Shown: positions 9,682 to 20,872 of the stretch, piece by piece
Layout: every line of letters begins with the position of its first letter
How positions within the stretch are numbered: position 1 is the stretch's first letter
Made by a program: the position numbers and the translations under genes
Notes under the pieces: generated by a model
What the model was told of the DNA's origin: nothing
The model's database searches: none
What the model saw: the letters and a program-made list of their open reading frames with translations, nothing else
Assembly (NCBI RefSeq): GCF_004087915.1
Contig: NZ_CP035108.1
Coordinates: forward strand, 1,178,001 to 1,242,000
Origin: Geovibrio thiophilus
Lineage (GTDB): Bacteria; Chrysiogenota; Deferribacteres; Deferribacterales; Geovibrionaceae
DNA length: 64,000 nucleotides
Reading direction: 5' to 3'

Positions 9682-11808
9682 ATGTTCATCGAAAAAATCG
9701 CAAATGAATTTTCGCTCAAAACCGCAAATGTTAAGAACCTCATCGAACTCCATCTGGACGGGAACACTGTTCCGTTCATAGCCCGTTACAGAAAGGAAAT
9801 GACAGGCGGAATGGACGCCGAGGAGATTAGGGCGGTTATCGAAAGATACGAATACATCGTGCACCTTGAAAAAAGAAAGGAAGAGGTGATTGAGGCGATA
9901 AGGGAACGTGAGAAACTCACTCCTGAGCTTGAAAAGGCGATCCGTGCCGCCGAAACCCTGAAGGATGTGGAGGATCTCTACGCACCGTACAAGTCCAAAC
10001 GCAAAACCAAGGGAGACATTGCCCGTGAAGCGGGACTTCTCCCTCTGGCAGACTTTATCAGAGGCACTGAGGATTTAAGCGGGCTTGAAGCGGAAGCGGC
10101 GAAGTATCTCAATGAAGCCGTGACGGATGTTCCCGCAGCTATAGAGATGGCGACCGACATAATTACCGAGGACATAGGACGGGATCCCGAAGTCAGAATC
10201 CGTATCAGAGAGCTTTACGCCTCAACCACTATGGTCTCCTGCGAGAAACGCAAGGAGGTCACTGACCGGACATCCTATGAGGATTACTACGAGTACGAAG
10301 AGAAGATAACAACGCTGCCGCCCCACAGGGTTCTCGCCATTTTCAGAGGTGAACGGGAAAAGATACTCAAAGTGAAGCTCAATCCCGATGAGGAGCTTTG
10401 TCTCGCCGCCGTGACAGGCATCTCCGCTCAGAAGGGGATGAAGCTGAACAGCATCACGCTGAAATGCTCAAACACTGCGCTTAAGAAGACAATAAGCGTA
10501 TCCGCCGAACTTGACCTGCGCTCCACTCTCAGGGATGAGGCGGAACTCAAGGCTATTGATGTTTTTGCGAAAAACCTGAAGAGCCTGCTCCTTACTCCGA
10601 AGGTTAAGGGAAAGGTGATAATGGGTATAGATCCCGCATACAGAACGGGCTGCAAGTTTGCTGTTGTGGACGAGACAGGCAGGCTCCTTGACTGGGGAGT
10701 GATGTATCCTACCAAGCCGCAGGAGGATGTGGAAGGAAGCAGAAGGCTTTTTCTCAAGTCCATGGAAAAATGCGGCGTGACCGCTGTCGCCATAGGCAAC
10801 GGAACAGCCAGCCGTGAGACCGAGGAGTTTGTGGCGGAGCTCATTAAGGATAAAGAACTTAAAATCACATATACCATAGTCAGCGAAGCGGGCGCTTCCG
10901 TGTATTCCGCAGGCGAAGTCGCCGCCAGAGAGTTTCCGGAGCTTGATGTAACGATAAGAGGGGCAATTTCCATTGCCAGAAGGGTGGTAGACCCCCTGAG
11001 CGAGCTTGTGAAGATAGAGCCGCGTTCAATCGGCGTGGGGATGTATCAGCATGACGTAAACCCCAAGAAGCTGGGCGAGAGCCTCGAATACGTGGTTGAA
11101 GACGTGGTGAACAGCGTGGGCGTGGATCTAAACACCGCCAGCCCTTCCCTCCTTCAGTATGTTGCAGGGCTTACCAAAAGCACTGCGGAAAAGATCGTTG
11201 CCCTGCGTGAAAGGATAGGGCGCTTCATGAGCCGCAGGCAGCTTATGGAGGTGGATGGCATAGGTCAGCAGACTTTCCTCCAGTGCGCCGGATTCCTTAA
11301 GGTTTATGACGGTGAGGAACCTATGGACGCAATGTTTATCCACCCTGAAAGCTATGAATCCACTTACTCGCTTCTTGGGAAGCTGAATGTTTCTCTCAAA
11401 AATACCGAGCTCATACGCCTTGCGCTTAAGAGTAAGAATTTAAAAAAGATAGCGGAAGAAGCAGGTCTCGGCGAGTTCACCATGAAGGATATTCTGGAAA
11501 ACCTTGAAAGACCGGACAGAGATATAAGGGACAGCCTCGATCCTGTGATATTCAAAAAGGGTGTTGTAAACCTTGAGGACATCAAAGAGGGCATGACATT
11601 GCAGGGCAAAGTGACCAACGTGGTGGATTTCGGCGCGTTTGTTGATCTCGGTCTGAAAAATGACGGACTGGTGCATATCTCGCATCTTGCGGATAAGTTT
11701 GTGAAGCATCCGTCCGATGTCGTCTCTGTCGGCGATAACGTCCATGTGCGTGTACTCTCCGTTGATAAGGATCGCGGGCGAGTCTCACTCACAATGAAAA
11801 CGAGATAA
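9682..11808 (+). CDS. tex: Tex family RNA-binding transcription accessory protein
   Basis: 708 residues, near the usual Tex length. Order: N-terminal helical Tex domain (PFIARYRKEMTGGMDAEEI), YqgF-like RNase H-fold domain (GIDPAYRTGCKFAVVDETG, about 315-440), helix-hairpin-helix region (DLNTASPSLLQYVAGL and VDGIGQQTFLQCAGFLKV), and a C-terminal S1 RNA-binding domain (GKVTNVVDFGAFVDLGL) ending KDRGRVSLTMK. It acts in transcription or RNA metabolism. AAAGGT precedes the ATG. The final 45 bases of the gene are duplicated downstream together with a repeat element. Confidence 0.94.
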   Translation: MFIEKIANEFSLKTANVKNLIELHLDGNTVPFIARYRKEMTGGMDAEEIRAVIERYEYIVHLEKRKEEVIEAIREREKLTPELEKAIRAAETLKDVEDLYAPYKSKRKTKGDIAREAGLLPLADFIRGTEDLSGLEAEAAKYLNEAVTDVPAAIEMATDIITEDIGRDPEVRIRIRELYASTTMVSCEKRKEVTDRTSYEDYYEYEEKITTLPPHRVLAIFRGEREKILKVKLNPDEELCLAAVTGISAQKGMKLNSITLKCSNTALKKTISVSAELDLRSTLRDEAELKAIDVFAKNLKSLLLTPKVKGKVIMGIDPAYRTGCKFAVVDETGRLLDWGVMYPTKPQEDVEGSRRLFLKSMEKCGVTAVAIGNGTASRETEEFVAELIKDKELKITYTIVSEAGASVYSAGEVAAREFPELDVTIRGAISIARRVVDPLSELVKIEPRSIGVGMYQHDVNPKKLGESLEYVVEDVVNSVGVDLNTASPSLLQYVAGLTKSTAEKIVALRERIGRFMSRRQLMEVDGIGQQTFLQCAGFLKVYDGEEPMDAMFIHPESYESTYSLLGKLNVSLKNTELIRLALKSKNLKKIAEEAGLGEFTMKDILENLERPDRDIRDSLDPVIFKKGVVNLEDIKEGMTLQGKVTNVVDFGAFVDLGLKNDGLVHISHLADKFVKHPSDVVSVGDNVHVRVLSVDKDRGRVSLTMKTR

Positions 11809-11813
11809 AGGTA

Positions 11814-12067
11814 AACAGTTCCATTGATGAAACTGCGCCGTGCGAAGCGAAGCCGCATTTACTGCGGCGCGAGCGTGTGTAAAAACCGACAGGATGTACG
11901 GTTTTTTACTGTCAGGTCAGATAAGGATCGCGGGCGAGTCTCACTCACAATGAAAACGAGATAAAGGTAAACAGTTCCATTGATGGAACTGCGCCGTGCG
12001 AAGCGAAGCCGCATTTACTGCGGCGCGAGCGTGTGTAAAAAACCGACAGGATGTACGGTTTTTTACT
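11814..12067 (+). repeat. Interspersed triple-hairpin repeat, two copies with duplicated tex 3' end (locus 2)
   Basis: Copy A (11814-11910) begins six bases after the tex stop, and copy B (11971-12067) follows. Hairpin 0 is CAGTTCCA/TGGAACTG, loop TTGA (copy A carries one mismatch). Hairpin 1 is GCCGC/GCGGC, loop ATTTACT. Hairpin 2 is AAAAACCG/CGGTTTTT around ACAGGATGTA. The linkers GCCGTGCGAAGCGAAG and CGAGCGTGT are the same as at the other loci. A 156-bp unit starting at 11764, inside tex, is repeated from 11920, so the last 45 bases of tex occur twice. Confidence 0.87.
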
Positions 12068-12598
12068 GTCATGTCAGTTCCATGGATGGATTTTTTAAAA
12101 TCCTCCCCTGCCCTCCTTTACGAAAGGAGGGTGTTTTTGTTCTTATCTGCAATAGCTTCTCCCTTTTTTTAAGTGGGATTGAGGGGGATTTGAAATAGCT
12201 GATTAAAGACTGCCGACATGAACACAGGAGCAGGATGTATGGTTTTTTACTGTCATGTCAGTTCCATGGATGGATTTTTTAAAATCCTCCCCTGCCCTCC
12301 TTTACGAAAGGAGGGTGTTTTTGTCCTTATCTGCAATAGCTTCCCCCTTTTTTTAAGTGGGATTGAGGGGGATTTGAAATAGCTGATTAAAGACTGCCGA
12401 CATGAACACAGGAGCAGGATGTACGGTTTTTTACTGTCATGTCAGTTCCATGGATGGATTTTTTAAAATCCTCCCCCGCCCTCCTTTATTAAAGGAGGGT
12501 ACTTTTATTTTTACCTGCAATAGCTTCCCCCTTTTAAAAGGGGGATTGAGGGGGATTTGAAATAGCGGATTATAGACTGTCAGTACGAACACAGGAGT
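12048..12598 (+). repeat. 184-bp tandem repeat, three copies
   Basis: Units begin at 12048, 12232 and 12416, each with AGGATGTAYGG, and are nearly identical. Each carries two palindromes: CCCTCCTTT/AAAGGAGGG and a CCCCCTTTT...AGGGGGAT segment. The third copy has changed to CCCTCCTTTATTAAAGGAGGG-type and CCCCCTTTTAAAAGGGGG-type forms. The palindromes resemble C-rich/G-rich intergenic repeats seen in many genomes. No gene is seen between 11809 and 12707; the gap is filled by this array, locus 2 and one palindrome. Confidence 0.85.
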
Positions 12599-12616
12599 AT
12601 GAAAATGGTCAAGGCG

Positions 12617-12654
12617 TATCGATCATGAACACAGACTTGTGTATCAGATCGATA
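12617..12654. repeat. 38-bp imperfect palindrome
   Basis: Outer arms TATCGATC (12617-12624) and GATCGATA (12647-12654) pair perfectly. A 4x4 internal mismatch follows, then ACACA/TGTGT around a four-base loop. It lies 53 bp beyond the 3' end of the triple-FeoA gene. It could be a terminator without a T-run or a protein-binding site; the sequence does not decide. Confidence 0.6.
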
Positions 12655-12707
12655 ACAGCCACATAGTTATTTTTCAGTGCAGCTATCACTACTGATACCG
12701 TCTGCGG

Positions 12708-13427
12708 CTATCCCTGCTCAACCTCAATCATTGAGGCGGTTTTTGAGGACATGGTTATTATAAGCCCTTCATGGGTATAGAGCACTATTTCCTGTTCAGC
12801 GTCTAGGTCAACCCGTTTTCCGCTCTCTATTCCCTCCATGATTATAACTGAGCCTATGCCTATCTCAACACCGCTGAGGAATGCGGTTATCTTCTGTCCC
12901 GCCGCTATGCCGGTAACTCTGAATTCTGTGCCCTTGGGTGAGAATGTAAGCTGAAAGTCCTTCCTGTTCACGGTATCGCCTACGATCATGGCGGCTACCG
13001 CTTCGGAGATACGCACCCTGTTTTTATGGTTGACCGTGATCACATATTCCATGGGAGGCAGGTTTTTTATTATCTTGACCTTCATCCTTTCCTTAACACC
13101 TAGCATGGCGAGCCTTGCGGCGTTTTTGTCGGATTTGCCGACGCTGTAGGTGATCACGGTGGACGAGGGGGATACTTCGTAAAACGGTTTGGGCTCTCCG
13201 CTGCCCGCACGGACGGTGATATGCTTGGCGAGCTGACCGCTGAGCACTCTTACACCGTTTTTTGTATCAATTTTGACAGTGGGGTATTTTATATCGTCCA
13301 GATCGAGCTTGGTTACGGCGCTGCCTTTGTAAAGCCCAAGGGAGGCGAGCTTCTGCGCCGAATCACCCTGTGGCGAGCTTTTTATTATGTAGCAGCGGCC
13401 GCTTTCGGCGTTTTGAAGGTTAAGCAT
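12708..13427 (-). CDS. Three tandem FeoA-like domains in one protein
   Basis: 239 residues made of three SH3-like FeoA units: about 1-75 (LASLGLYKGS, NGVRVLSGQLAKHITV), 85-155 (ARLAMLGVKERMKVKII, NRVRISEAVAAMIVG) and 157-236 (FLSGVEIGIGSVIIM, EGLIITMSSKTASMIEV). Each shows the 'leu-gly then basic/hydrophobic strand' FeoA pattern, weakening toward the third. FeoA is normally a single 75-85 residue cytosolic partner of the ferrous-iron transporter FeoB; no feoB is present here. AAGGAG precedes the ATG. It is the last gene of the metal-ATPase operon, directly after an ATPase stop codon, so a role in gating or assembling the iron pump is likely (inference). Confidence 0.75.
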   Translation of the reverse strand: MLNLQNAESGRCYIIKSSPQGDSAQKLASLGLYKGSAVTKLDLDDIKYPTVKIDTKNGVRVLSGQLAKHITVRAGSGEPKPFYEVSPSSTVITYSVGKSDKNAARLAMLGVKERMKVKIIKNLPPMEYVITVNHKNRVRISEAVAAMIVGDTVNRKDFQLTFSPKGTEFRVTGIAAGQKITAFLSGVEIGIGSVIIMEGIESGKRVDLDAEQEIVLYTHEGLIITMSSKTASMIEVEQG

Positions 13428-15527
13428 CTACTTCTCCTTTTTTTGTTTTACACCGTATGAGGAAAGACTCAGGGCGTAAATCAGTGTCGAAAGCGTGGTT
13501 CCGTTGTGGAGCAGGGCGCTTGTCAGCGGGCTTATTCTGCCCATGAGCGAGAGAGCAACTGTAGCGGTGTTCACGCCTATGTTAAACCGGAACATCTGTT
13601 TTATCACCTTCATGGTTTTCACTGCGAGCACTCTTGCCTTGACTATTCCCATGAGGTCTTCCCGAAGAAGTATGACTGCGGCGGTTTCCTTGGCGAGATC
13701 CGCCCCCTGAGGAAGGCTTATGCCTACATCAGCGGTGAGCAGGGCGGGCGCGTCGTTCACGCCGTCACCTGCGAAGGCGATTTTGCAGCCTTGAGTTTTA
13801 AGTTTTTTTACTATGCCCGCCTTGTCCTCGGGCTTCATTTCGTAATAAACTTCGTCTATGCCGAGCAGTTCCGCCACATGCAGAGCCGAATCACGGTGGT
13901 CACCGGTGATCATAACGGTCTTTTTAATGCCGTACTTCTTAAGCTCTTTTATAACCTGAGCCGATTCATCCCGCAAGGTATCTTTGAGGGCAATAAGACC
14001 GCAGAGCTTGCCGTCTATTGCGACATAAAGTATGGTCTGCCCCTTTTTGCGCATATTACGGGCATCCTCATCAGCAAAGCAGCATACAACTTTTTCATCC
14101 TCCGCCACAAAATGGTGGCTGCCCACAAGGACGTTTTTGCCGCCGACATATGCGGAGACGCCGTGGGCTATGATGAAATCCACCTCGCCTGTCTGCTCTG
14201 TTTTAAGGCTGCGGTTTTCCGCCTCCTTTACCACGGCAGAGGCTATGGGATGTGAGTAGTACTCTTCCGCAGAGGCGGCGATTCTGACTATTTCGTTTTC
14301 GTTATATCCGTTATAGGGCTTAACCTCCGTTACGGAGAGTGTCCCTTTTGTAAGCGTTCCTGTTTTGTCGAAAATAATAGTGTCTATTTCGGCAAGGTTT
14401 TCAAGCGCCTGAGCGCCTTTGATGAATATGCCCTCAGTTGCGGCGTTGAACATGCTTGCCTTGATCGCTGTGGGCGTTACAAGCTGGAGCGCACAGGAGT
14501 AGTCCACCGAGAGAACGGAGGACGCACGCCTGAAATCCCTTGTGAGAAGGAGGGTGGCGAGTCCTGCGGCGAAGGTTACGGGAACCATCTTGTCAGCCGC
14601 CGCGAATGCCTTAACTTCGGTTCTGGATTTGTTTTTCAGCGAATTGCTTATGAACTTCGCTATGCGTGCCGTTGTGGTTTCGGAGCCGACCTTTTCGGCT
14701 TCGATGATGATTTTTCCTTCCGCCATCACCGTGCCGGAATAAACATAGTCGCCGGGCTTAATGTGAACCGGCAGACTTTCGCCTGTGACGGATGCCTGAT
14801 TAACAAGCCCCTCACCGGAGGCGACTTTGCCGTCCACGGGGATCATTTCCCCTGAGCCTGCCCGCACAAGATCCCCTATCTGGAGATCGTTTACTGCGGT
14901 CTTTTCCTCGGACTGTCCCCTGACCACCCAGACGTATTCCACTTCGGGCTTGATAAGGCTTTTCAGCATTTTGTCAGACCTGTACTCGGCGGATTCCTCA
15001 AGATAATGCCCGAGATTCAGCAGGAAGGTTATGGAACCCGCGGTAAAGTAGTCTTTTCTGGCAAGGAGCATGGAGATAACGGCAGCGTCCAGCACCTCGA
15101 CCTTCAGCCCTCTGGTGAAAAGGGTTTCAATCCCCTCCATGAGGATAGGCGCAGCGCCGAGATAGGTAAGCGGGCGTCTCAGTCCCTGCGGCAGGAACAG
15201 CTTGAGAAGCCACATTGTTCCCGCCCAGTAGACATTGATTAAATCGGGGGAGTTCTGGAGCTCCTCCTCCGCGTTGAAAACCGTATGGCTGAACGCTGAG
15301 AGAACATCCAGAACATCTCCCCGGACATCAGTATTTTTGTCAAAGCTGACCACTGCCGTTTTGGCTTTCTGGTTCACACGAACGGACTTAACGCCCTTAA
15401 TCTGCTCCAGACCGGATTCCACAAGGGTTGCATCCAGAGCGGGGTTGCCCAGAACGGGAGCCTTGAGGCGTATACGCCCCGGCATGTCATGCACTATTCC
15501 GACTTTTTCCAGTCCGGTGAAAAACAT
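13428..15527 (-). CDS. P-type metal ATPase lacking the CPC motif, HMA-like N-terminus
   Basis: 699 residues. An HMA2-like N-terminal domain (HDMPGRIRLKAP, about 12-75) precedes the membrane helices. Actuator motif TGESLPV, phosphorylation site DKTGTLT near residue 385, and hinge GDGVNDAPAL are all present, so it should be active. The membrane metal site normally reading CPC is YSCALQLVTP (Cys near 343), and the last helices have LLHNGTTLSTLIYALSLSSY. This marks an unusual P1B subgroup; P1B-6 pumps of ferrosomes and Feo-linked loci are my best match, from memory. Iron is the suspected cargo, given the FeoA gene that follows immediately. Weak ribosome site AGGCTCA. Confidence 0.85.
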   Translation of the reverse strand: MFFTGLEKVGIVHDMPGRIRLKAPVLGNPALDATLVESGLEQIKGVKSVRVNQKAKTAVVSFDKNTDVRGDVLDVLSAFSHTVFNAEEELQNSPDLINVYWAGTMWLLKLFLPQGLRRPLTYLGAAPILMEGIETLFTRGLKVEVLDAAVISMLLARKDYFTAGSITFLLNLGHYLEESAEYRSDKMLKSLIKPEVEYVWVVRGQSEEKTAVNDLQIGDLVRAGSGEMIPVDGKVASGEGLVNQASVTGESLPVHIKPGDYVYSGTVMAEGKIIIEAEKVGSETTTARIAKFISNSLKNKSRTEVKAFAAADKMVPVTFAAGLATLLLTRDFRRASSVLSVDYSCALQLVTPTAIKASMFNAATEGIFIKGAQALENLAEIDTIIFDKTGTLTKGTLSVTEVKPYNGYNENEIVRIAASAEEYYSHPIASAVVKEAENRSLKTEQTGEVDFIIAHGVSAYVGGKNVLVGSHHFVAEDEKVVCCFADEDARNMRKKGQTILYVAIDGKLCGLIALKDTLRDESAQVIKELKKYGIKKTVMITGDHRDSALHVAELLGIDEVYYEMKPEDKAGIVKKLKTQGCKIAFAGDGVNDAPALLTADVGISLPQGADLAKETAAVILLREDLMGIVKARVLAVKTMKVIKQMFRFNIGVNTATVALSLMGRISPLTSALLHNGTTLSTLIYALSLSSYGVKQKKEK

Positions 15528-15550
15528 TGAGCCTAAAATGACAGCACCTT

Positions 15551-15775
15551 CTAACTCTTCATATTTTCAGGGTAGAGATAATTATGGTAAATGCTCAGAC
15601 CCACAAGGGCAATACCGGAGGCTATGTGGAGCTGTTTATGCCCCTTGCCCCTGCCGAAGCCTGTTACCACAGTCGCCGCCATGGCAAATATCATGGCGTT
15701 TTTAACTATTTTGCGTTTGCGCATTATGGCGGAGGCGTTTTTCTTTTTCGCCGCCGCCTTGTTTTCGCCGCTCAC
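15551..15775 (-). CDS. Small basic membrane protein of the metal-ATPase operon
   Basis: 74 residues from a GTG start preceded by AAGGGG. A Lys-rich N-terminus (KAAAKKKN, MRKRKIVKN) is followed by two short hydrophobic segments (AMIFAMAATVVTGFG and IASGIALVGLSIYHNYLY) with the basic turn GRGKGHKQLH between them. No known family recognised. It sits between a Pro/Tyr-rich protein gene (one base away) and the CPC-less ATPase (23 bp), so it is almost certainly expressed with them. A structural or targeting role at an iron-handling membrane is inference only. Confidence 0.65.
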   Translation of the reverse strand: MSGENKAAAKKKNASAIMRKRKIVKNAMIFAMAATVVTGFGRGKGHKQLHIASGIALVGLSIYHNYLYPENMKS

Positions 15776-15776
15776 G

Positions 15777-16100
15777 TTATTCCCCTTCGACTTCCGCCTG
15801 AACGTCCCTGATCTGCTCTTTCAGTTCTTCAACGCCGGACTGAAGCCCGCCCCAAACCTTAACAACACCTTTGACTATGGCTTTTTTAACTGTGGGGTTT
15901 GTGAGAAGAAGGGCAATGCCCGCTCCGACAGCGAAGCCTTTCACATAGCTGGGTTCACGGAAGTTGAACCACTGTTTAAGGTGAGGATAAACGGAAGTGT
16001 CCGCATAATGCTGCTGAGGGGGATAGGGGTAAGGGTAGTAGCCGTACTGCTGACCTTGGGGTGCCTGAGGGTTCTGGGGATTCTGTTTCTGATCGCTCAT
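15777..16100 (-). CDS. Pro/Gln/Tyr-rich membrane protein, paralogue of the 16536-17228 product
   Basis: 107 residues. The first 35 are disordered and rich in Pro, Gln and Tyr (QQYGYYPYPYPPQQHY). Then comes YVKGFAVGAGIALLLTN, a single hydrophobic segment with a GxGxA core, and an amphipathic tail (VWGGLQSGVEELKEQIRDVQ). The same layout and the same V-K-G-x3-G-A-G-(I/V)-A core occur in the protein encoded at 16536-17228, so the two are related. No named family recognised. AAAGGAGG precedes the ATG. The glycine-packed helix suggests oligomerisation in a membrane (inference). Confidence 0.68.
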   Translation of the reverse strand: MSDQKQNPQNPQAPQGQQYGYYPYPYPPQQHYADTSVYPHLKQWFNFREPSYVKGFAVGAGIALLLTNPTVKKAIVKGVVKVWGGLQSGVEELKEQIRDVQAEVEGE

Positions 16101-16121
16101 GTGAGCCTCCTTTTTTATATA

Positions 16122-16526
16122 TTATTCTGATTTTAAAGGTTCTTCGTTTTTCATCTTTTCGCTTACCGCCGCGGCAGCTTCGCTGACTTTTCCGGCAGCC
16201 TTGCCGACAGATGATTTCACTTTTTTACAGGCTTTTTTACCTTCTGTGTCCAGCAGGTATTTTGTGCCCGCCGCCACCGCGAATACCGCAAGTATTCCGA
16301 AAACCCCGCCGAGCCTGAGAAGACTCACAGCCGCAACGCCGACTGCTGTCGCCGCTCCTGCGCCTGCCGCGTCTTTCGCTGTTCTTTTGGCGGCTTCTTC
16401 CTTGGTGATTTTGCCTTCCTTAACGTCCTTTGCCTGTTTGGCGGCGGATACTGCTCCGCCTACTACCGCACCTGCTACTCCGCCCGCGAGGGAGGCGCCT
16501 GCGGCTGCTTTTACCAGATGGTGCAT
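16122..16526 (-). CDS. Ala/Gly-rich two-helix membrane protein resembling magnetosome protein MamC
   Basis: 134 residues. Helix one (AGASLAGGVAGAVVGGAVSAA), then a charged loop KQAKDVKEGKITKEEAAKRT, then helix two (LGGVFGILAVFAVAAGTKYLL) and a Lys/Ala-rich tail. From memory, MamC of magnetotactic bacteria has the same plan: two helices around a charged loop with KEKRITNTEAA-like sequence and a KYAWD-like end. I rate this as resemblance, not proof of homology. AGGAGG precedes the ATG, and the gene is nine bases after its upstream neighbour. MamC lines iron-mineral vesicles, which fits an iron-compartment role here (inference). Confidence 0.65.
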   Translation of the reverse strand: MHHLVKAAAGASLAGGVAGAVVGGAVSAAKQAKDVKEGKITKEEAAKRTAKDAAGAGAATAVGVAAVSLLRLGGVFGILAVFAVAAGTKYLLDTEGKKACKKVKSSVGKAAGKVSEAAAAVSEKMKNEEPLKSE

Positions 16527-16535
16527 AAAATCCTC

Positions 16536-17228
16536 CTATTCGGTTTCTTCGGCATCCTCTGCCATTCCGCCGAGAGTTTTAGAGAAAATACTCATCAGTG
16601 AATCCTTGATGGAATCGTTGGAAAAGAGCATCGCGACGCCCGCTCCGATCAGCATTCCTTTCACAAAGTCGCTTCCTGACGCATCCGCAATTTTCCCTAC
16701 AGCGGAAAGATGCGGATTTTCCTTGATCATGTCCCCGAACTTGCCGAACAGCATACCGAAGGGATCATCTCCGTGGTGCTCCTGATGATTCCCGTGATGC
16801 GCTTCGTGCGGCATCTGGGGCATATAGCCGTAAGGCTGCTGCGGCATGTATCCGTATGGCGGCGGGGGCGGCGGCATATACCCGTAAGGCATCTGCGGCA
16901 TGTACCCGTACGGCGGCTGAGGCGGCATATAGCCGTATCCGTATGGCGGCGGAGGGGGAGGGGGCATATAGCCGTACGGCTGCTGCTGAAAGCCGTATTC
17001 AGGCATGCCTGTGAACTCTTCTCCGTTTGGTGCGTATCCGTAGGGTATTTCCGTTTGATCTCCGGCGGGCGTCTGTTCGCCGCCTGATTGTTTCTCCGAT
17101 GCTCTGAAGGCATTCTGAGGAGTTTCTTCTTTAGCCTGTTCATTTCCCGATGCAGAGTTTTTCTGCGGTTTATCGGTGCAGCTTTCTTCCTGAACGGGAT
17201 TTTCCGCGTCAGCGGCTTTTTTTCCCAT
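16536..17228 (-). CDS. PYGYM-repeat, proline/tyrosine-rich membrane-tail protein
   Basis: 230 residues. A polar N-terminus (1-70) leads into a low-complexity region with repeated PYGYM/PYGYGYM units separated by poly-Pro or PQ (about 75-145), a His-rich patch (HEAHHGNHQEHHG) that could bind metal, and a C-terminal FVKGMLIGAGVAMLFSN hydrophobic segment with an acidic end. The C-terminus is related to that of the 15777-16100 product. Start set at 17228, where AAGGAGG is six bases upstream; the longer in-frame start at 17288 lies inside the HMA gene. Low-complexity Tyr/Pro sequence often drives condensation or scaffolding (inference). Confidence 0.7.
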   Translation of the reverse strand: MGKKAADAENPVQEESCTDKPQKNSASGNEQAKEETPQNAFRASEKQSGGEQTPAGDQTEIPYGYAPNGEEFTGMPEYGFQQQPYGYMPPPPPPPYGYGYMPPQPPYGYMPQMPYGYMPPPPPPYGYMPQQPYGYMPQMPHEAHHGNHQEHHGDDPFGMLFGKFGDMIKENPHLSAVGKIADASGSDFVKGMLIGAGVAMLFSNDSIKDSLMSIFSKTLGGMAEDAEETE

Positions 17229-17239
17229 GTACTGCCTCC

Positions 17240-17545
17240 TTAACTTTGCATGTAGGTGTCCTCGTAGCGTTTGAGTATCTCCCTGCATGCTTCAGTATCT
17301 TTTGTAGTTATAAGCTTTTCAAATGTTGTCGGATCTATTATGTTCGGGTCGTAGCGTATTACAACGGAGCGCGCCATTATGTTCACCCTTGTGTCGAGCA
17401 CACCGGGGAGGCTGCTGCTTATTTGTTCGAGTTTTTTGCTCACGGGATCCTTCACCACGGAAGGGTCAACCTTGAGCCTTATCCTGCCTTCCACATGGTG
17501 GGCAACTGTGACGTATTTCTTTGCCGCGATTAAATCTTCGAGCAT
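17240..17545 (-). CDS. Small stand-alone HMA2-like protein
   Basis: 101 residues with a ferredoxin-like alpha-beta fold expected. AHHVEGRIRLKVDP at residues 15-28 matches the N-terminal domains of both ATPases in this operon (H-x-x-x-GRIRLK). SSSLPGVLDTRVNIMARSVVIRYDP supplies the second half. It lacks the CxxC copper site of classical HMA domains, so metal binding would use other ligands or none. Its first 16 bases overlap the end of the upstream ATPase gene. Likely a soluble partner of the pumps. Confidence 0.75.
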   Translation of the reverse strand: MLEDLIAAKKYVTVAHHVEGRIRLKVDPSVVKDPVSKKLEQISSSLPGVLDTRVNIMARSVVIRYDPNIIDPTTFEKLITTKDTEACREILKRYEDTYMQS

Positions 17546-19749
17546 TTTTCCCCATCCTCTGTTAATTCAGCTGCTTCCGTTTCCACAACGGAGAGAGGCT
17601 GCATTTCGTATTTTAAAAGTCTGGAAGAATTAGCCAGAACACCCGCTGTGTGGGCTATGTGCAGAAGCCCCGCCATCACCGGAGGCAGAAGCCCCGCCGC
17701 GCCGAGGAACGCCCCAGCTACGTTTGAGCCTGTTGCCAGCATAAAGTTCTGGTGTATTACTTCCTTTGTCTTTCTGCTGAGTTTTCTTAAGTAGAGTATT
17801 TTTTCAAGGTCATCATCCACAAGGGCTATGTCCGCCGCTTCCACTGCAACGTCAGACCCGGCGGCGCCCATGGCTATGCCCAGATCCGCCTTTGCCAGCG
17901 CCAGTACATCGTTTATGCCGTCGCCTATCATGGTGACTTTATGGTACTGCTGAATCTCAGCCACTATGTCCGCCTTCTGCTCAGGCAGAACGGAGTAATG
18001 GCATTTGTTGAAACCGAGCCTGTCCGCCATTGCCTGTGCGGAGTATTTTTCATCTCCGGTAACAAGGATGAACTCCTTCACCCCTTCCTCACGGAGACCT
18101 TTTATCACGGCTTCCACATTCTCCTTCTGTTTGTTTTCAACAGTGAGAATGCCTATCACCTTGCCGTCTTCCGCCACATATATGACGCTTAAGCCGAGCT
18201 TTTCCGCCTCATCCCGCGCTTTTGCGAGCTTGGTGATGCTTATGCCGTATTTGTTCATCAGCTTGGCGTTGCCGATGAAGATCTCCCTGCCCATGGATTC
18301 GGCGCGCACGCCCATTCCGAGGATAGTTTCGCATACGGCGTGGGTGCTTTCCGTGCTGCACATTTCCCTTGCCTTGTCACGTATGGCGACGGCTACGGGG
18401 TGTCTGTTGTGGAGCTCTGCGGTGTAGGCCGAATATATTACGTCGTACTCCGATTTTCCCTTGATCGGGATAATGGAGATTACCTTCGGTTCGTCTGTGG
18501 TTATTGTGCCTGTTTTGTCGAAGCAGAAGGACTCCTGAGAACCCGCTTCCTCAAGGTATCTTCCGCCTTTTATCAGTATGCCCCTTGAAGCGGCGTTTGA
18601 TATGGCAGCGCTCACTGCGGATGATGCGGCAAGTACTGTGGCGCAGGGGCACGTCATCACAAGGAGGACGGAGAACGCCCTGTAAAAACTGCGTGTGACA
18701 AGGTATGTGCCCAGAGTCATCCAGAAGCCTGTGTTTACAAGCTTTCTCGCCAGTCTGTCCGCTTCGAGTTCTATGGGAGCCTTGTTTCCGAGGGAGTCCT
18801 CAACGAGGCAGAGTATTCTTGAAAGGTAAGTGGCATCCCCTACATGGCTTGCCTGAACATATATAAGTCCGTTCTGCACATAGGTTCCGGCGAATACCTG
18901 TTCGCCTTCAAAGCGGTGCACAAGCTCGCTGCGTCCGTTTATGGAGGCTTCGTTTATTGCCGCCTCACCGCAGGTGATCAGCCCGTCCACGGAGATTTTC
19001 TCGCCTGTGTGGATAACGACTGTATCCCCCACCAGTATATCTTCCACAGGGATTTCTATCTCGTTTCCGTCTCTGTAAACGAAGGCGGTTTTAGAAGTGA
19101 CATCAAGTATGCTTTTTATTGCCTTTCGGGATTTCTCGGTAACATAACCGTTCAGCAGGTCGCTTCCCGTATTTACCCAGAGGATTTCAAGGGCGGTAAG
19201 GGCTTCGCCGGCTATGGCTGCGGACGCAACGCCAGCGCCGAGGAAGCTGTTCAGGGATATTTTGCCAGTTTTGCCGAAGTCGCTCACAGCTTTTGCTATG
19301 AGAGGAACGGAGAACGCCGCTGCGATGAGCCCAAGGGGGCTGAACAGTGACTGAGTTACCGCCAGCCGGAATATTTTGGTGCGTATGAATACACCGCCGA
19401 GAACAGCGGAAAGAATGCCGAACTCCGTGGCGGTCGTATCCGCTTTCGGGCGCTCGCTCCTTACGCATACGCAGCCTTGTCTTTTGCATGCAGGGGCGTT
19501 AATCTCAGAGCGGAGAAGGGGCTTGGTTTCGGTTATGGCTTTAATAAGGTCGGAGGGCAGAACAGCGGTACAGTCATAATTTATAACTATATTGCCGCCT
19601 ATGTGGCTGCATCTCGCACCGCTTACTCCTTGGAGCTTGAGCAGGGATTCCTCCACTGCCGCAGCTAAGGAAGGAGAGCCGGTCATTTCTTTATATTTAA
19701 GGCGGATTCGCCCTTTGAGAGAGTGTTTAATCGTTATCAATTTAGCCAC
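17530..19749 (-). CDS. P-type metal ATPase with CPC motif and HMA2-like N-terminus
   Basis: 739 residues. N-terminal HMA2-like domain (HSLKGRIRLKYKE), then a Cys-rich linker (ACKRQGCVCV), membrane helices, actuator domain (NGRSELVHR replaces the usual TGES), CPCATVLA metal site near residue 366, DKTGTIT phosphorylation site near 410, GDGINDVLALA hinge, and a last helix HIAHTAGVLANSSRLL. The TGES-equivalent being GRSE is odd: Glu is kept but Thr-Gly are not. Start is either GTG 19749 or TTG 19740; AGGTGG at 19747-19752 favours TTG 19740. First gene of the eight-gene operon. Confidence 0.85.
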   Translation of the reverse strand: MAKLITIKHSLKGRIRLKYKEMTGSPSLAAAVEESLLKLQGVSGARCSHIGGNIVINYDCTAVLPSDLIKAITETKPLLRSEINAPACKRQGCVCVRSERPKADTTATEFGILSAVLGGVFIRTKIFRLAVTQSLFSPLGLIAAAFSVPLIAKAVSDFGKTGKISLNSFLGAGVASAAIAGEALTALEILWVNTGSDLLNGYVTEKSRKAIKSILDVTSKTAFVYRDGNEIEIPVEDILVGDTVVIHTGEKISVDGLITCGEAAINEASINGRSELVHRFEGEQVFAGTYVQNGLIYVQASHVGDATYLSRILCLVEDSLGNKAPIELEADRLARKLVNTGFWMTLGTYLVTRSFYRAFSVLLVMTCPCATVLAASSAVSAAISNAASRGILIKGGRYLEEAGSQESFCFDKTGTITTDEPKVISIIPIKGKSEYDVIYSAYTAELHNRHPVAVAIRDKAREMCSTESTHAVCETILGMGVRAESMGREIFIGNAKLMNKYGISITKLAKARDEAEKLGLSVIYVAEDGKVIGILTVENKQKENVEAVIKGLREEGVKEFILVTGDEKYSAQAMADRLGFNKCHYSVLPEQKADIVAEIQQYHKVTMIGDGINDVLALAKADLGIAMGAAGSDVAVEAADIALVDDDLEKILYLRKLSRKTKEVIHQNFMLATGSNVAGAFLGAAGLLPPVMAGLLHIAHTAGVLANSSRLLKYEMQPLSVVETEAAELTEDGEKCSKI

Positions 19750-19797
19750 CTAAAACTTTATTAAAAATATGGTTAACAAAGTTAGTTTCTATCTAAT

Positions 19798-19830
19798 CAT
19801 ATATCCTATTTGAGATGATTTTCAAGTCAA
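19798..19830 (-). promoter_or_regulatory. Candidate promoter of the metal-ATPase operon
   Basis: On the minus strand, TTGAAA (19825-19820) and TATATG (19803-19798) are 16 bp apart in an AT-rich gap of 136 bp after dus. The overlapping TGAAAATCAT resembles one half of a Fur box (TGATAATCAT), but the other half is poor. A second -35-like TTGACT lies at 19830-19825. Iron control is plausible but not shown. Confidence 0.4.
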
Positions 19831-19885
19831 AATGTTAAAAAATGTCAGATAAATTAAGGGAGTATTGTGCGGAGGTTCGTAACTG

Positions 19886-20872
19886 TCAGAGAACCGGGAT
19901 ATTTTCAAAATATCTGTCAATGAGTTCTGTGGTCTCTGTCATAGTTTTTGTTGTGTAGATTTCAGTTCTGAATACTGAGGATTCCGGAAGACCTTTCGTG
20001 AACCAGACAGCATATTTTTTTATCGCGTCCGAGTAATATTTTTCCTCTCTGTAGAGTGCCTCATAACGGATCATTCTGTAAATGAGCGAGTGTATCTCCC
20101 GGGGCGTGAGGAAGCCGTCCGGGTCCTTGCCCTCTGAAAGCGCCTTGAAAATCCACGGAGCCTTCATCATTCCCCGCCCGATCATTACGCCCGCCGCTCC
20201 GGTTTCTCTCATCCTGCGGCAGGATTCCGTGTCGGCAACATTTCCGTTGCCGATGACCGGTATAGGGCTTCTCTTCACTGCGTCAGCGATCATGGCGTAG
20301 TCGACTTCGCCTGAAAACATCTCTGATTTGGTGCGTCCGTGCAGGCTTACGGCGTCTATGCCTTCACCTGCGGCTATTTCGAGCACTTCCGGATAGTTTA
20401 TGCTGCCTCTGTCCCAGCCGAGGCGGATTTTGACCGTCAGCGGCTTGTCAGTGGCTTTTCTGGCAGCTTTGATTATCTCCCTGATTTTAACCGTGTCCTT
20501 GAGCAGAGCGGCACCGCTGCCGCTTTTCAGCACTTTTTTTACGGGACAGCCCATGTTTATGTCGTAAAAGTCAGCATTCGAGTGTTCGTCGCAGATCTTG
20601 ATGGCGTCATGGATCGATTCCGGTCTGGAACCGAAAAGCTGGAGGGCGTAAGGATTGTCCCTTTCCGTGAGGCGGACATATTCCAGAGTTTTTTTCCCGC
20701 CCCTGATCAGCCCCTCAACAGAGACCATCTCCGAAAAAATTATTCCGTCAAAAAAATCACGTACGGCAAGACGGAACGGAGGCGTGCTGACGCCTGCCAT
20801 GGGAGCGGCGACAAATACATTTTTCTTAAGGCTTTCTGTGATTATGTTATCCGATTTCCGGCTGAGTGTCAT
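19886..20872 (-). CDS. dus: tRNA-dihydrouridine synthase, DusB type
   Basis: 328 residues. FMN-dependent TIM barrel reducing uridines in the tRNA D-loop. Motifs: APMAGVSTPPFR at the start of the barrel, INMGCPVKKVLKSGSGAALL with the catalytic Cys, KIRLGWD, SLHGRTKSEMFSG, NGNVADTESC and GVMIGRGMMKAPWIF. Start set at 20872, where AAGGAA lies upstream; this leaves a 26-base overlap with tsaD. A longer frame to 20929 would only add residues read from tsaD. Which Dus subtype is a guess from length and motif spelling. Confidence 0.92.
   Translation of the reverse strand: MTLSRKSDNIITESLKKNVFVAAPMAGVSTPPFRLAVRDFFDGIIFSEMVSVEGLIRGGKKTLEYVRLTERDNPYALQLFGSRPESIHDAIKICDEHSNADFYDINMGCPVKKVLKSGSGAALLKDTVKIREIIKAARKATDKPLTVKIRLGWDRGSINYPEVLEIAAGEGIDAVSLHGRTKSEMFSGEVDYAMIADAVKRSPIPVIGNGNVADTESCRRMRETGAAGVMIGRGMMKAPWIFKALSEGKDPDGFLTPREIHSLIYRMIRYEALYREEKYYSDAIKKYAVWFTKGLPESSVFRTEIYTTKTMTETTELIDRYFENIPVL

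Follow-up and report, generated by a model that had tools for sequence, protein, structure and literature searches.

A two-pump-type fez operon of Geovibrio thiophilus that most likely encodes an iron-storing membrane compartment

Organisation, conservation and surroundings of the operon

The minus strand of the window, i.e., the whole stretch of 64,000 nucleotides analysed here, carries eight adjoining open reading frames between positions 12708 and 19749, all of which were recovered as follows, in the 5′ to 3′ direction of the operon and preceded by a candidate promoter.

19796..19825, minus strand: candidate sigma-70-type promoter, TTGAAA-18-TATGAT, ca. 50 bp before gene 1 (consensus match alone)
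17530..19749, minus strand: gene 1, second pump, a P1B-type ATPase assigned outside P1B-6, 739 aa (HMA_2 domain, motifs, tree)
17240..17545, minus strand: gene 2, stand-alone HMA_2 protein, 101 aa (domain call; homologues beside fezB in three phyla)
16536..17288, minus strand: gene 3, Pro/Tyr-rich single-helix membrane protein with GYMP repeats, 250 aa (hhalign, orthologues)
16122..16526, minus strand: gene 4, MamC-like two-helix Gly/Ala-rich membrane protein, 134 aa (MamC model, profile comparison)
15777..16100, minus strand: gene 5, YtxH-like protein with a Tyr/Pro-rich tail, one helix and a charged C-terminus, 107 aa
15551..15775, minus strand: gene 6, FezC-like putative haem-b cytochrome subunit, DUF4405-related, 74 aa (His50 and His64 invariant)
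13428..15527, minus strand: gene 7, assigned as FezB, a predicted P1B-6-type iron ATPase, 699 aa (DYSCAL in TM4, LLHNGTT in TM6, tree)
12708..13427, minus strand: gene 8, three fused FeoA (SH3-like) domains, 239 aa, soluble (Pfam, AlphaFold model)

The spacing between successive genes is −16, −49, +9, +21, +1, +23 and 0 bp, and the overlap of 49 bp between genes 2 and 3 would be shorter if gene 3 used a downstream ATG as in its orthologues, which start ca. 20 aa downstream of the annotated start. Domain calls placed an N-terminal HMA_2 domain on each of the two P1B ATPases and recognised the stand-alone HMA_2 protein and FeoA. Both the layout and these calls agreed with a preliminary description of the locus, which had listed eight minus-strand genes with small gaps or overlaps, among them two P-type metal ATPases and a stand-alone HMA2-like protein.

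The genome containing the window consists of one contig of 2,997,552 bases. The whole eight-gene set was found in this and eight other Geovibrionaceae genomes (two from the same genus and six from two further genera), and the gene order was identical in all nine family members possessing the operon, which is a degree of conservation far beyond chance. FezC and both pumps were absent from three genomes of the same family (G019, G020 and G023).

Upstream of the operon, no Fur-box match above chance was found in the window's genus; in one relative, a match at 14 of 19 positions was obtained (0 of 300 shuffles). An Rfam scan of positions 11500–20500 of the window returned neither a riboswitch nor any other known RNA. 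In the two other genera that have the operon, a conserved leader (GCGTTCGGGTTGACACATTA...) lies ca. 60–100 bp upstream of the first gene of the second-pump operon (L022–L028). Downstream of the operon, at 11764–12597 of the window, the 3′ end of a tex-like gene is duplicated (156-bp unit, two copies), and beyond it lie three direct repeats of 184 bp with hairpins; a core of ca. 93 bp of these repeats occurs in ca. 30 copies genome-wide and resembles an interspersed element.

FezB, FezC and the small membrane proteins

The product of 13428–15527 contains DYSCAL in its fourth transmembrane segment and LHNGTT near its end, and the corresponding motifs DYSCA and LHNG[TS]T are conserved in FezB of Rhodopseudomonas, Azospirillum, Magnetospirillum, Arcobacter and others. 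A P1B tree had been proposed in the preliminary description as a check on both ATPases. In two trees, the product of 13428–15527 was placed within the FezB clade (Rhodopseudomonas, Azospirillum and others) with support of 99–100, apart from CopA, ZntA and CtpC-like pumps. By motif and phylogeny, gene 7 is thus assigned as FezB, a P1B-6-type ATPase. The closest solved structures to both pumps of the operon are of the CopA and ZntA types and add little.

The 74-residue product of 15551–15775 is identifiable as FezC, an assignment that rests on the family alignment. Taken alone, it matched DUF4405 at an E value of only 0.21, whereas 10 of 12 members of the family matched at a lax threshold (best E = 5e-4), and His50 and His64 were invariant in all 12 sequences. 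It is also homologous (E = 3.4e-7) to the fezC product of a genome that we take to be Desulfurispirillum indicum. FezC of D. indicum is a ferrosome haem-b cytochrome for which haem binding has been shown (PMC11334425). The preliminary description had recognised gene 6 correctly as a membrane protein and left it unnamed. In 45 proteobacterial fez loci, FezC was fused to the C-terminus of HMA2 (e.g., L081, 762–1283; L112, 3730–4209; L042, 6115–6666), and the fused form matched the stand-alone form with a profile probability of 96.3. Therefore, the six-gene operons also carry the cytochrome.

The stand-alone HMA_2 protein (gene 2) has an HHVEGRIRL motif and no CxxC, and its homologues adjoin fezB in three phyla. 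When HMA2 was used alone as the query, plasmid operons were retrieved in Azospirillum, Arcobacter and Vibrio, and every match lay near a FezB match in the same record. Small HMA2 and helix proteins adjoin FezB in most of the FezB loci fetched, as well as in 30 of 30 Campylobacterota loci. The helix families of genes 3 and 5 are related to each other (hhalign, 96.9), with the kinship located in the C-terminal helix; the preliminary description had already called the two Pro/Tyr-rich single-helix proteins related. Gene 3 has a homologue in the Vibrio plasmid operon L113, and gene 3 is only weakly connected to the gene in third position of the proteobacterial operon. Plasmids with fez operons were seen in Arcobacter, Azospirillum, Vibrio and Cereibacter (L111, L112, L113 and L114); thus, ferrosome genes can be plasmid-borne.

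These assignments bear on the possibility that the operon encodes a plasma-membrane metal-efflux platform and no organelle, in which HMA2-type P1B pumps are scaffolded by single-helix partners, as in actinobacterial CtpC with DUF1490. The wider HMA2-ATPase superclade does include CtpC-like pumps whose genes neighbour that of a DUF1490 helix protein, as well as a Deinococcus pump encoded next to DUF6110, and the second pump of the operon has a soft-metal CPC motif. Nevertheless, the ATPase at 13428–15527 falls in the FezB clade and not in the CtpC clade, and FezC, the MamC-like protein and the Tyr/Pro helix protein are parts of fez operons that make ferrosomes (PMC12016538), which renders an efflux platform very unlikely.

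The relationship of gene 4, called a MamC-like two-helix protein in the preliminary description, to the magnetosome protein MamC was borne out by profile comparison. The NCBIfam MamC model matched gene 4 with 45 bits (E = 1e-11) and the Geovibrionaceae family of this gene with 45–61 bits, against a cut-off of 100 bits, and the family is located in the fez operon, not in a magnetosome cluster. The fez gene was the sole match to the model in three Geovibrionaceae genomes (E = 8e-12 to 3e-16) and in an Arcobacter (E = 6e-6); true MamC in magnetotactic genomes gave E < 1e-38. In the profile–profile comparison, gene 4 and MamC were aligned with a probability of 98.8 and 35% identity over 100 columns. 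Both proteins are short and rich in Gly and Ala, and the MamC model weakly matched (E up to 0.1) 5 of 14 control genomes, such that the likeness might reflect convergence between helical hairpins of similar composition without homology. This explanation appears unlikely, given that the score of 101 exceeds the values of ≤ 27 from 60 column-shuffled controls and of 21 obtained with the alignment reversed, that the other small membrane protein families of the operon reached a probability of < 3% against MamC, and that the likeness extends to the polar loop (KEGKITKEEAA versus KEKRITNTEAA). Gene 4 is therefore very probably a true homologue of MamC.

For the MamC loop, iron binding and the templating of magnetite in vitro have been reported, with Asp70 implicated in the former (PMC6584501). 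The residue of gene 4 aligned with Asp70 is not acidic, a point on the side of convergence, and mineral templating by gene 4 thus cannot be assumed. With the gene-4 family as the query, 65 of 298 Campylobacterota genomes gave one match each, and the best 30 of these 65 matches all adjoin the helix gene and fezB. Accordingly, the family is very probably a conserved and general ferrosome component. The proteobacterial counterpart, including that of Rhodopseudomonas, joined the family with a profile probability of 99.5 to the Campylobacterota form and 92.9 to the window form, and of only 15 when compared directly with MamC.

The second pump and the triple FeoA protein

The ATPase encoded at 17530–19749 has TCPCAT in TM4, HIAHT in TM6, a CxC in the linker and an N-terminal HMA_2 domain. 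Lacking a DYSCA-type site in TM4 and lying outside the FezB clade, in a clade of its own with 100/100 support, it does not qualify as P1B-6, and its origin as a recent duplicate of FezB was ruled out by the tree and the motifs. Within Deferribacterota, orthologues (at least 56% identity) were restricted to the nine operon-bearing genomes. In Campylobacterota, the pump was found at E 1e-105 in 10 of 298 genomes, each time as the first gene of a complete fez operon. Thus, all 19 members found (nine in Deferribacterota, ten in Campylobacterota) belong to fez operons, and the pump is the first gene and immediately precedes HMA2 wherever the gene order was mapped. The Campylobacterota members join those of the window group in a single clade (100/100), whose common motifs are [TS]CPC[AS]T and H[IL]xHT. 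A restriction to Geovibrionaceae, which the searches of Deferribacterota and Pseudomonadota had suggested, was overturned by the Campylobacterota search. Among 398 Pseudomonadota genomes, there was no match at E 1e-105, a cut-off that may have hidden more distant members. Likewise, none of 84 FezB loci had a second co-directional pump; these loci were picked by the FezB pattern and are mostly from Pseudomonadota, and the count is thus not an estimate of frequency. Given the location of its members in fez operons and their union in one fully supported clade, the second pump is assigned to a distinct, ferrosome-linked P1B subfamily that is present in a minority of fez operons.

In the preliminary description, ATPases falling outside P1B-6, with copper or zinc pumps, had been listed as one part of what would refute a ferrosome. 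The second pump, with its CPC motif, does fall outside, whereas 13428–15527 does not; since all 19 known members of the second-pump group are tied to fez operons, its position only qualifies the ferrosome reading. The second pump might nevertheless not be part of the organelle and instead serve as a detoxification or efflux pump of the cell membrane, joined to the other genes by no more than a common promoter. From its CPC and HIxHT motifs, a cation site unlike that of FezB is predicted, and the pump is absent from most fez operons, as judged from the FezB loci and, at the cut-off used, the Pseudomonadota genomes. However, no orthologue was found outside fez operons in Deferribacterota (9 of 9) or Campylobacterota (10 of 10), nor was it found in any mapped position other than directly before HMA2. 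We therefore consider a role apart from the organelle possible, if rather doubtful.

The product of the final gene (12708–13427) scored 40.8 bits for FeoA against a Pfam gathering score of 23, with two FeoA stretches recognised by Pfam. In the AlphaFold model (mean pLDDT 87), the succession of strands and helices recurs three times, at approximately residues 1–74, 80–152 and 158–239, in line with the three FeoA domains counted in the preliminary description. A Foldseek search of the PDB with this model gave weak matches only, FeoA entries among them, and the assignment is better grounded in the repeat pattern and in Pfam. The triple FeoA was found in the nine Geovibrionaceae genomes only. Its candidacy as a wider ferrosome part was rejected, as no homologue was seen in those other fez operons that were inspected. 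In D. indicum, fezC is followed by ordinary genes for FeoA and FeoB, and FeoA adjoins the cluster on the Cereibacter fez plasmid; an iron-linked FeoA thus recurs as a neighbour of fez loci.

Proposed function and comparison with known systems

The eight genes are best interpreted as a two-pump-type fez operon that most likely directs the formation of membrane vesicles storing iron. The candidate ferrosome operon proposed in the preliminary description thus gains support from the FezB clade and from homologues of the small proteins: counterparts of HMA2, the MamC-like protein, the YtxH or Pro/Tyr helix protein and FezC were all found in the six-gene operons of Rhodopseudomonas and Azospirillum. 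Three observations weigh against this reading, namely the weak connection of gene 3 to the proteobacterial operon, the poor DUF4405 score of gene 6 taken alone and the lack of a Fur-box match above chance in the window's genus. The names of the Fez proteins used here were assigned through operon homology and secondary papers.

From their sequences, the operon proteins can be given putative roles in transport, redox control and structure. FezB would transfer Fe2+ from the cytosol into the vesicle at the expense of ATP, and FezC, forming a haem-b homodimer within the vesicle membrane, could pass electrons across that membrane and thereby determine whether the stored iron is Fe2+ or Fe3+. The MamC-like protein and the Tyr/Pro-tailed helix proteins might coat and shape the vesicle and hold mineral at its membrane. 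The HMA2 protein and the HMA2 N-domains would mediate contacts between the pumps and their partners rather than Cys-based metal delivery, and the triple FeoA could act from the cytosol on one pump or on both, as a regulator or adaptor. Marked by a soft-metal CPC motif and two histidines in TM6, the second pump may carry a different ion, or iron at a different affinity, either to the interior of the same vesicle or through the cell membrane, possibly in another phase of loading. The genome also encodes ferritin; therefore, a ferrosome would be an additional iron store.

Ferrosomes are a recent discovery, and most of their small proteins have yet to be given a function. A MamC homologue offers a testable role for one of these proteins and links two iron organelles, and a pump subfamily confined to fez operons raises the question of which ion besides Fe2+ a ferrosome handles. 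Both points can be joined in one tentative reading, which we regard as plausible yet somewhat short of probable: MamC was recruited from, or shares a common ancestor with, a general mineral-organising ferrosome protein, and a subset of ferrosomes in two phyla loads another ion through the second pump. On this reading, iron would not be the only element that some ferrosomes store or require.

Six fez genes make ferrosomes in R. palustris CGA009 (PMC12016538). This six-gene type, known from R. palustris and Shewanella putrefaciens, was represented in our comparison by one operon each of Rhodopseudomonas and Azospirillum. In Rhodopseudomonas sp. BR0M22, the operon has exactly six collinear genes, encoding an HMA2–FezC fusion, HMA2, a single-helix protein, a MamC-like protein, a YtxH/PY helix protein and FezB. 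The Rhodopseudomonas and Azospirillum operons have FezB, HMA2, the MamC-like protein, the YtxH or Tyr/Pro helix protein and a FezC-type domain in common with the window, with HMA2, the MamC-like protein, the helix protein and FezB in the same relative order. In the window, by contrast, FezC has a gene of its own, which follows that of the helix protein, and is not fused to HMA2 at the start of the operon, and the CPC ATPase at the 5′ end and the triple FeoA at the 3′ end are extra, as the preliminary description had suspected of the two ATPases and the triple FeoA.

The ferrosome clusters of Campylobacterota (Arcobacter and Campylobacter) share HMA2, YtxH, the MamC-like protein, the helix protein, FezB and FezC with the window. 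Where two pumps are present, the order is pump, HMA2, usually a DUF2202 ferritin-like protein, YtxH, MamC-like protein, helix protein, FezB and FezC. These clusters differ from the window in that the DUF2202 ferritin-like membrane protein is mostly added, the triple FeoA is missing and a YtxH protein takes the place of the second Pro/Tyr protein. Ferritin-like proteins of the DUF2202 type, with a membrane segment at the C-terminus, were seen in many fez operons (e.g., L109, 6417–7085; L111, 4339–5022; L030, 6006–6626) and may be iron-binding parts of the ferrosome.

The fezC cluster of D. indicum has FezC, FezB, the helix protein and HMA2 in common with the window, and differs in having no second pump and no triple FeoA, with the Feo genes just downstream. 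In C. difficile, FezA and FezB are both needed for ferrosomes and are the only two proteins named as required in a review (PMC12574912); by description, this pair corresponds to the FezB-type transporter and a membrane protein of the window. In another family of the same order, inferred to be gut Mucispirillum-like, a module of a DUF6110/YtxH helix protein, a DYSCA-type ATPase and HMA2 was observed (L173, 120–2797; L176, 7807–10468; and L172, 9316–11711, the last without the helix gene), which is possibly a minimal FezA/FezB system.

Actinobacterial CtpC-type pumps resemble the second pump in their HMA_2 N-domain, CPC motif and helix partner gene, whereas they form a separate clade and have LHNASS in TM6 where the second pump has HIxHT. 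Finally, MamC (Mms13) and gene 4 are homologous two-helix proteins with a polar loop, the former encoded in magnetosome islands and the latter in a fez operon.
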